Positions 27,492 through 29,319 of a stretch of DNA of 64,000 bases are shown piece by piece. The notes beneath the pieces are model-generated. The model was given only the letters and a program-made list of their open reading frames with translations, was not told the origin of the DNA and made no database searches. This stretch comes from Modestobacter sp. VKM Ac-2984. Lineage in GTDB: Bacteria; Actinomycetota; Actinomycetes; Mycobacteriales; Geodermatophilaceae. Where the stretch lies: NCBI RefSeq assembly GCF_026967985.1, contig NZ_JAPVBJ010000001.1:248001-312000 (forward strand). Direction: 5' to 3'. The translations under genes were made by a program, and so were the position numbers. The stretch's first letter is position 1; each line of letters begins with the position of its first letter.

Positions 27492-28654
27492 CCGCTTCCT
27501 GGCGCAGGCTGCTGCGGGTGTGCGCCGGGCTCTCGGTGGCGGCCGCGGTGCACGCCGCACTGAACAGCCGGCTCCTCCGCCGGCCGCCGGCCGTGCCCCG
27601 ACCGGCCCCCCGCCGGGTGACCGTGGTGGTCCCGGCCCGCGACGAGGCCGACCAGATCGCCGACTGCCTGGCCGCCGTGCTCGACCAGCGCGGGGTGCCG
27701 CACCTGCAGGTCGTGGTCGTCGACGACGGCTCCACCGACGGCACCGCCGACCGGGTCACGGCGGTCGGCGACGACCGGGTCACCCTGCTCCTTGCGACGC
27801 CACCCGCGCCGGGCTGGCTGGGCAAGCCGAACGCCTGCGCCCAGGGCGCCGCCACGGACCACCAGCAGGCCGACGACGTGCTGGTCTTCCTGGACGCCGA
27901 CGTCCGGCTGATGCCCGACGCGATCGCCTCGGCGGTCGCCCTGCTCGACGACGCCGGGCTCGACCTGGTCTCCCCCTGGCCGCGCCAGCTCACCGGCAGC
28001 GCCGCCGAGCGGCTCGTCCAGCCGCTGCAGCAGTGGCTGTGGGCCACCCTGTTGCCGCTGCACCTGGCCGAGCGGTCACCGCGACCGTCGCTGGCAGCGG
28101 CCAACGGCCAGTTCCTGGTGGTCCGCCGCGCGGCCTACGGCCGGGCCGGCGGGCACGCCGCCGTCCGCGGTGAGGTGATCGAGGACGTCGCACTGCTGCG
28201 TGCGGTCAAGGCCGCCGGGGGCCGGGGCGTCGTCGTCGACGGTTCGACGCTGGCCGCCTGCCGGATGTACGACGGCTGGCCGGGGGTCCGGGACGGTTAC
28301 ACCAAGTCGCTGTGGTCGGCGGTCGGCGGGCGCCCGGCGGCCGCCGTCGGGGTGGCGGCCGGGCTCAGCGCCGTCTGGCTGCTGCCGCCGCTGGCTGCGC
28401 TGACCGGCTCCCGCGCCGGGCTGGTCGGCTACGCCGCCGGGGTGGTGAACCGGGCCGTGGTCGCGTCCCGCACGGGTGGCCGGGCCTGGCCGGACTCGCT
28501 GGCGCACCCGGTGTCGATCGTCCTGCTCGACGTGCTGGTCGCCCGCTCGGTGGCCGGCCACCGGCAGGGCTCGCTCCGGTGGCGCGGGCGCACCCTGACG
28601 GCTGCCGCCGTCGACCAGCGGCCTGCGCCCCGAGCCACCATGCTGGGCCGATGA
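27488..28654 (+). CDS. GT2 glycosyltransferase, CruG-like
   Basis: 388 residues. GT-A features: VTVVVPARDEADQIADCL at the N-terminus, VVVVDDGSTDGTADR for nucleotide binding, VFLDADVRLMPD as the DxD metal motif, and EVIEDVALLRAVK as the catalytic ED. An N-terminal helix (about 7-24) and two C-terminal helices (WSAVGGRPAAAVGVAAGLSA and VWLLPPLAALTGSRAG) anchor it in the membrane, as in carotenoid glycosyltransferases of the CruG type. It is coupled to CruF upstream and to the selenoprotein gene downstream by ATGA overlaps. The sugar donor and exact acceptor cannot be deduced. Confidence 0.87.
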   Translation: MTASWRRLLRVCAGLSVAAAVHAALNSRLLRRPPAVPRPAPRRVTVVVPARDEADQIADCLAAVLDQRGVPHLQVVVVDDGSTDGTADRVTAVGDDRVTLLLATPPAPGWLGKPNACAQGAATDHQQADDVLVFLDADVRLMPDAIASAVALLDDAGLDLVSPWPRQLTGSAAERLVQPLQQWLWATLLPLHLAERSPRPSLAAANGQFLVVRRAAYGRAGGHAAVRGEVIEDVALLRAVKAAGGRGVVVDGSTLAACRMYDGWPGVRDGYTKSLWSAVGGRPAAAVGVAAGLSAVWLLPPLAALTGSRAGLVGYAAGVVNRAVVASRTGGRAWPDSLAHPVSIVLLDVLVARSVAGHRQGSLRWRGRTLTAAAVDQRPAPRATMLGR

Positions 28655-29319
28655 CGAGCAGCGACCTCCTCGCCCTGCGCACCGACGAGCGCGCCGCCCT
28701 CCTCTTCATCGGCCTGCGCGGCGACTGGTAGCCCTACTGCTGCGCCCAGGCGGTCCGTCTGGCCCAGTCCCTGCCCCGCGTCACCGCCGCCGGCGCCGAG
28801 GTGGTGCTCGCCTCGGTCGACCCGCCCGAGGTCCAGCTCGCGATGGACCACACCTGGCACCTGCCGTTCCGGTGGGCCAGCGACCCCGACGGCACCCGGC
28901 TCGCGAAGCCGCTGGACGCCTGGGACACCGACGCGTCGATCTTCCGGCCGGTCGTCGTCGTCGTGGCCCCGGACGGCCGCGAGGTGTTCCGGGAGCTGTC
29001 CCGGGACTTCACCGACCGCACCGACGACGAGCCGGTGCTCACCGCCATCGAGGCCCTCGGGCTCCCCGCGCTCCCCGAACCGGCGCCGTGGGCCCCGGAG
29101 GGTGTGGCCCCGCAGCCGTCCAAGCGCGCGTTCAAGCCCAGCTCCTTCATCCCCTACTTCCGCGCCATCCGGTTCAACACCATGGCGCTGAGCGACCGGA
29201 TGGTCGACGACCGGGACCGCGACCTGCTGGTCACCGAGCAGCGGATGGCCGAGTCCTTCCTCGGCGCCTTCGACACCTGGCGCGCCGAGCACCCGCCGGA
29301 CGGGCAGGGCCGGAGCTGA
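28651..29319 (+). CDS. Thioredoxin-fold (peroxiredoxin-like) selenoprotein with UAG-encoded Sec
   Basis: The frame opens at ATG 28651 (overlapping the GT2 stop), meets a single TAG at 28729-28731, then stays open to 29319: 222 codons in all. Residues around the TAG read LRGDW-TAG-PYCCAQAV. In peroxiredoxin- and thioredoxin-like proteins this is the active-site GDWCPYC, so the stop falls exactly on the first redox Cys (residue 27). IFRPVVVVVAPDGREVF downstream is the expected central strand of the fold. A hairpin with apical GGUCC follows at SECIS distance. UAG-programmed Sec insertion is known in Geodermatophilus and Blastococcus. I infer Sec27 in a UxxC redox site. A decayed gene or a sequencing error is possible but less likely. 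Confidence 0.85.
28740..28767 (+). promoter_or_regulatory. Candidate bacterial SECIS element
   Basis: Hairpin beginning 9 nt after the UAG. Upper stem CCAGGC (28746-28751) pairs with GUCUGG (28757-28762), including one G-U, around the apical loop GGUCC (28752-28756). Lower pairs CUG/CAG (28740-28742 with 28765-28767) flank a small internal loop. The loop G is 23 nt from the first base of UAG, against 22 nt for the GGUCU loop of E. coli fdhF. Size, position and the GGU loop all fit SelB recognition. Confidence 0.75.

Follow-up and report, generated by a model that had tools for sequence, protein, structure and literature searches.

Gene and neighbourhood

The window is a stretch of 64,000 nt from the genome of the soil actinobacterium Modestobacter sp. 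VKM Ac-2984 (G000; 21 contigs, 4.56 Mb), corresponding to C1:248001-312000. A gene for a peroxiredoxin-like protein of the AhpC/TSA family, 222 residues long, lies on its forward strand at positions 28651..29319, stop codon included. The frame opens with ATG, comprises 222 codons (28651-29316) and ends in TGA. Its sole internal stop is a TAG at 28729..28731 on the same strand, codon 27, which we read as selenocysteine. An earlier note on this DNA had pointed to a single TAG in an otherwise open 222-codon frame, with GDW and PYCC as the flanking residues, and both the frame and its translation agree with that description. The TAG takes the first Cys position of a GDWCPYC motif, where the product would carry Sec27 within U-P-Y-C. 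In the list of open reading frames, the gene is split into two separate frames, the downstream one starting with a GTG at 28801. Ordinary ORF calling truncates this UAG-Sec peroxiredoxin-like protein.

The start of the gene overlaps the stop of an upstream glycosyltransferase frame as ATGA. The earlier note had used this overlap as an argument for recoding; the overlap exists, but it is no evidence for recoding because only the window's genus has these neighbours. In 7 of the 8 loci of that genus the glycosyltransferase adjoins the gene, and in all 8 a flavin reductase does. Neither was found in 22 loci of other genera (flanks of at most 1.5 kb), nor in 15 loci with 4-kb flanks, a set that overlaps the 22. 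A function based on an operon was rejected, since neighbours restricted to one genus are uninformative on function.

Protein family and predicted fold

The read-through protein matches the Pfam model AhpC-TSA (PF00578) with 45.3 bits (cut-off 26; E 9.8e-12) over residues 19-109. None of the NCBIfam models, including the AhpC equivalog TIGR03137, matched the window protein at E 0.001, and we therefore claim no named peroxiredoxin subfamily for it. A structure was predicted with AlphaFold2 from an alignment of 31 rows, consisting of the window protein, 14 further orthologues of the 30 described below and 16 of the 60 distant relatives, with Cys in place of Sec. The model has a mean pLDDT of 92.7 and a pTM of 0.88, and residue 27 directly precedes a helix (residues 28-39), as the redox position does in a thioredoxin fold. 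Among the 50 Foldseek matches listed, all are peroxiredoxins, the best with an E of 5.9e-7 and a TM-score by query of about 0.5. Sequence searches retrieved three solved structures, all weak matches, the best of which is a protein disulfide-isomerase (E 0.0012).

Two helices are predicted beyond the Pfam match, at residues 163-213, and the start of this part is shared by relatives with Cys at the Sec position. These are peroxiredoxin-like RGDWCPYC proteins from Rubrobacteraceae and Rubrobacter MAGs (L087-L090) and from an actinobacterial MAG (L103). They have the same domain and a similar beginning of the C-terminal extension, but differ from the window protein in encoding Cys (TGC) at the Sec position, with 27-34% identity to it overall.

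Decoding machinery

The genome encodes a tRNA-Sec with a CUA anticodon on the minus strand of the same contig (C1:521731-521822), which scores 64.2 bits against RF01852 (cut-off 47). It is the only strong tRNA-Sec in the genome; ARAGORN identifies a second match above the cut-off, with 48.1 bits, as a tRNA-Ser(TGA). The gene is adjoined by selA (E 1.1e-93), whose domain make-up was checked, and by selB, which combines SelB-wing_3 (E 2.4e-14) with an EF-Tu GTPase domain, while selD (E 8.3e-117) is encoded about 8 kb beyond them. The tRNA-Sec(CUA), selA, selB and selD by which the earlier note proposed to judge its reading are thus all present. The gene for RF1 (prfA) is also found in the genome. 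In the region containing these genes (L241:1067-13114), genes resembling those for sugar transport, glycosidases and a LacI-type regulator, as judged by eye, separate the cluster of tRNA-Sec, selA and selB from selD.

Alternatively, the CUA anticodon might belong to a pyrrolysine tRNA or some other amber suppressor, which would then read the UAG. ARAGORN indeed labels this tRNA 'tRNA-Pyl', and compared with the tRNA-Sec model it has five non-standard pairs (two in the inner acceptor stem, one in the D-stem and two in the anticodon stem). However, it aligns with the tRNA-Sec model from end to end, with a six-position D-stem and a 4-base loop, and both G73 and an encoded CCA follow. A long D-stem with a 4-base loop and G73 are features of tRNA-Sec according to excerpts of PMC7609411. 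The adjoining selA and selB also speak against a suppressor, as does the place of the codon, which falls at a redox Cys in the window gene and at a Sec site in the formate dehydrogenase (FDH) of the same genome. In that enzyme, TAG occurs in the context NQARI-*-HSATV, the place that selenocysteine (UGA) takes in E. coli fdhF. From the class of the tRNA and the site of the codon, pyrrolysine was judged unlikely, and we regard this whole reading as highly improbable.

Conservation of the TAG codon

A search of 112 genomes of the family with the read-through protein as query returned matches in 32; of the 96 genomes with a completeness of 90% or more and a contamination of no more than 5%, 31 had a match. 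Two weak matches, 25-28% identical over part of the protein (G028 and G038), were left out of the orthologues, as was a second match of 30% in G104. The orthologue is therefore present in 30 of the 112 genomes, distributed over five genera. Every one of the 30 has TAG at codon 27, a count that was rechecked with a motif permitting any codon at the site, and every one resides in a genome with a CUA tRNA-Sec. The search detected no orthologue in the other 82 genomes, of which 80 gave no match and 2 nothing beyond weak matches, indicating that the gene is dispensable.

Apart from the TAG, the frame is continuous in 28 of the 30 orthologues. Among these 28, dN/dS is 0.15 upstream of the TAG (22 codons) and 0.25 over the first 64 codons downstream, obtained from 371 and 375 of the 378 pairs, respectively. 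Purifying selection acts on both sides of the TAG.

We also scanned genomes of named species, in which 101 relatives were found and 80 kept. The first 20 of these belong to Geodermatophilaceae (Modestobacter, Blastococcus and Geodermatophilus) and all carry TAG; they overlap the 30 orthologues and are not an independent count. One of the species with a TAG orthologue is Blastococcus saxobsidens DSM 44509 (L073), to whose protein the window protein is 78% identical. The remaining 60 relatives all have Cys (TGC or TGT) within GDWCPYC, a result that is largely due to construction, GDWCPYC being one of the two search patterns. Concerning the choice between Cys, TGA and TAG at this codon, on which the earlier note wanted homologues aligned, the answer is TAG in the orthologues and Cys in distant homologues.

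A putative SECIS hairpin downstream of the TAG

The segment that follows the TAG can fold as CCAGGCG-GUC-CGUCUGG. This putative bacterial SECIS hairpin, at 28746..28762 on the forward strand, has a 7-bp stem (CCAGGCG / CGTCTGG) with a GTC loop or, alternatively, a stem of 6 bp with a GGTCC loop. Its GGTC apex is located at 28752-28755, 20 nt past the TAG. E. coli fdhF likewise has a GGUC-apex hairpin, 18 nt past its Sec codon; it differs in its codon, which is UGA and not UAG, in its shorter and bulged stem and in belonging to an unrelated protein family. The FDH of the window's own genome also has a GGUC, 18 nt past the TAG.

Past the TAG, the DNA is nearly frozen, with little variation at synonymous sites. 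Codons +2 to +8, +10 and +11, which make up 9 of the 10 codons from +2 to +11, do not differ among the 28 intact orthologues. Codon +9 alone varies, between C and T, with pairing kept as G-C or G-U, and this is the only variable position of the stem. The mean synonymous difference is 0.10 for codons +1 to +12 vs 0.27 for codons +13 to +64 and 0.30 upstream; the Mann-Whitney p value of 0.001 for this reduction is indicative, since the sequences share ancestry. In the window, counting both strands, 22 of the 1519 GGTC sites have a stem of at least 6 pairs, and from the window sequence about 0.0012 GGTC hairpins of at least 6 bp are expected per codon at the right distance. The folding energy of the hairpin is not exceptional compared with shuffled sequences (z -0.44, 54 of 200 as good); the corresponding z values are -1.68 for the FDH of the same genome and -1.55 for that of E. 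coli. An argument for the hairpin from energy alone was consequently rejected as not significant.

This ordinary folding energy could be taken to favour another explanation, in which the UAG undergoes low-level, unprogrammed readthrough with Gln or Tyr, yielding little protein, and the conserved hairpin has some other role. Nevertheless, a sense codon occurs at the site in none of the 30 orthologues, the codon falls on the position of the catalytic Cys, and a tRNA-Sec that reads UAG is encoded in the genome together with selA, selB and selD. We consider such readthrough very improbable.

Frameshifted orthologues

The two orthologues without a continuous frame, L035 (in G104) and L036 (in G029), have a 1-nt deletion just after the TAG: each lacks one C in the same run of C residues, at the 5' foot of the hairpin. 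The deletion breaks the frame, although the remainder is still open, with 188-189 residues matched. L035 and L036 have a downstream dN of 0.138 and 0.178, respectively, vs 0.124-0.152 in four intact controls. The tree does not join the two as sisters, and L036 is on a long branch. The deletion may represent a sequencing error, recent decay or frameshifting. A frameshift in sister orthologues was the one counter-sign named in the earlier note that did appear, in 2 of the 30, the other 28 being intact.

That the window gene is simply broken, by a nonsense mutation or a sequencing error and possibly with reinitiation at the GTG at 28801, would account for the in-frame stop, for the downstream start in the ORF list and for an indel near the TAG in two orthologues, but is the least probable alternative and can practically be dismissed, given that all 30 orthologues, which come from separate genomes and five genera, have this TAG, that purifying selection acts on both of its sides and that the DNA past it is frozen. 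A pseudogene or a sequencing error was rejected on the conservation of the TAG in 30 of 30 alone.

Probable selenocysteine insertion at codon 27

The earlier note held the UAG to be a recoded Sec codon and not a lesion. This reading is supported by the tRNA-Sec(CUA), by selA, selB and selD, by the TAG of all 30 orthologues, by Cys in distant relatives and by the TAG of the FDH gene. Very probably, the gene product is a selenoprotein of peroxiredoxin-like type, with a UAG-specified selenocysteine at residue 27 (in U-P-Y-C) as its catalytic residue.

We infer Sec insertion, SelB binding and enzymatic activity from these genes and motifs. By the established bacterial route, SerRS would charge tRNA-Sec(CUA) with serine, and SelA would convert the charged tRNA using selenophosphate from SelD. 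SelB, which the hairpin beginning 14 nt past the UAG would presumably recruit, would then bring the Sec-tRNA to the ribosome. At codon 27, SelB would outcompete RF1 for the UAG, and other UAGs would still terminate. The product is expected to reduce peroxides or disulfides through its selenol, with Cys30 or Cys31 as the probable resolving thiol.

UAG-encoded selenocysteine in previously described systems

UAG-programmed selenocysteine was reportedly described in Geodermatophilus and Blastococcus, with a 75Se result, by Mukai et al. 2016 (Angew Chem). The study is cited in both PMC5330540 and PMC10778597, as far as the available excerpts of these papers go, and the excerpts of PMC5330540 cite it for FDH and UGSC selenoproteins. 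The same excerpts of PMC5330540 (Santesmasses et al. 2017) report a CUA tRNA-Sec in three Geodermatophilaceae genomes, and what the earlier note had said about UAG-Sec in Geodermatophilus and Blastococcus is to that extent borne out. The present case resembles those systems in its CUA tRNA-Sec, in UAG as the Sec codon and in an FDH with UAG. It differs in the genus, Modestobacter, and in the selenoprotein, which is AhpC-like; a UGSC protein was not found in the window's own genome, in a search that had no positive control.

A UAG-Sec AhpC was already reported in 2017 for B. saxobsidens DD2, again according to excerpts of PMC5330540, so the kind is known and the window gene is a further member of it. 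The two have in common the AhpC family, the Sec-TAG, a bSECIS and a CUA tRNA-Sec, as far as those excerpts describe the DD2 gene, and they are probably one-to-one orthologues. In a literature search that covered few subscription papers, no paper was found on Modestobacter and selenocysteine. Nor did the portions of the literature that this search covered mention the distribution across genera, the frozen hairpin or a single gene that uses UAG in both ways.

UAG as probable Sec codon across the family

A tRNA-Sec above the cut-off was detected in 108 of the 112 family genomes. Of the 110 genes retrieved, 102 have a CUA and 8 a UCA anticodon. At the level of genomes, CUA tRNA-Sec is present in 101, UCA only in 7, and no tRNA-Sec was found in the remaining 4. 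The seven UCA-only genomes (L038-L043 and L046) all belong to three genera, g6-g8, which may help to date the switch to CUA. None of these seven gave a match in the FDH search (E 1e-40).

At that threshold, FDH matches were retrieved from 99 of the 112 family genomes, and in 98 of these 99 at least one match contains a single TAG. We read 30 of the FDH loci, and in all 30 the TAG stands in the Sec context and is followed by GGTC at bases 19-22. In the 99th genome (G080, genus g9), which has a CUA tRNA-Sec, the FDH matches on contigs C4 and C12 are split around the Sec position, with no piece covering it, and one FDH piece has two in-frame TGA codons. Taken together, these results suggest that UAG-Sec decoding is a state of the whole lineage, involving at least two selenoprotein families, and not the curiosity of a few strains.

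UAG has nevertheless kept its role as a terminator. The terminal stop of the 28 intact orthologues is TAG in 14 and TGA in 14, and in the former 14, UAG therefore means both selenocysteine and stop within one gene. A Sec-UAG must be told from a stop-UAG by context, most likely by the hairpin and SelB. The gene is thus a natural case in which one codon carries the meanings 'insert Sec' and 'stop' and the two are told apart by their surroundings, most likely by a short hairpin.

Tentatively, and with rather more doubt than confidence, we propose that in the core Geodermatophilaceae UAG replaced UGA altogether as the Sec codon, a change that occurred in their ancestor and has been fixed since, with UAG doubling as a terminator even within one gene. 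On the same tentative footing, at least one descendant (G059, of the Geodermatophilus group) would since have gained a UCA tRNA-Sec beside a TGA-bearing CMD gene, and so may decode both UAG and UGA as selenocysteine with a single SelB.

G059 has both a CUA (L207) and a UCA tRNA-Sec, a TAG in its FDH and one SelB found. The UCA tRNA-Sec (L037) and the CMD gene (L240) are located at G059:C17:1173-1263 and 1579-2157, near a transposase-like frame recognized by eye. In the CMD gene, which encodes an AhpD-like protein (PF02627), a TGA stands in frame behind C-F-Y, and a hairpin of 7 bp follows it. At a distance of about 10 kb, the same contig has a 4-kb part with matches in all of the 26 genomes of the genus; these matches are largely repeats, so the contig with the UCA tRNA-Sec may be contamination. 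A genome with both CUA and UCA tRNA-Sec may be a newer observation.
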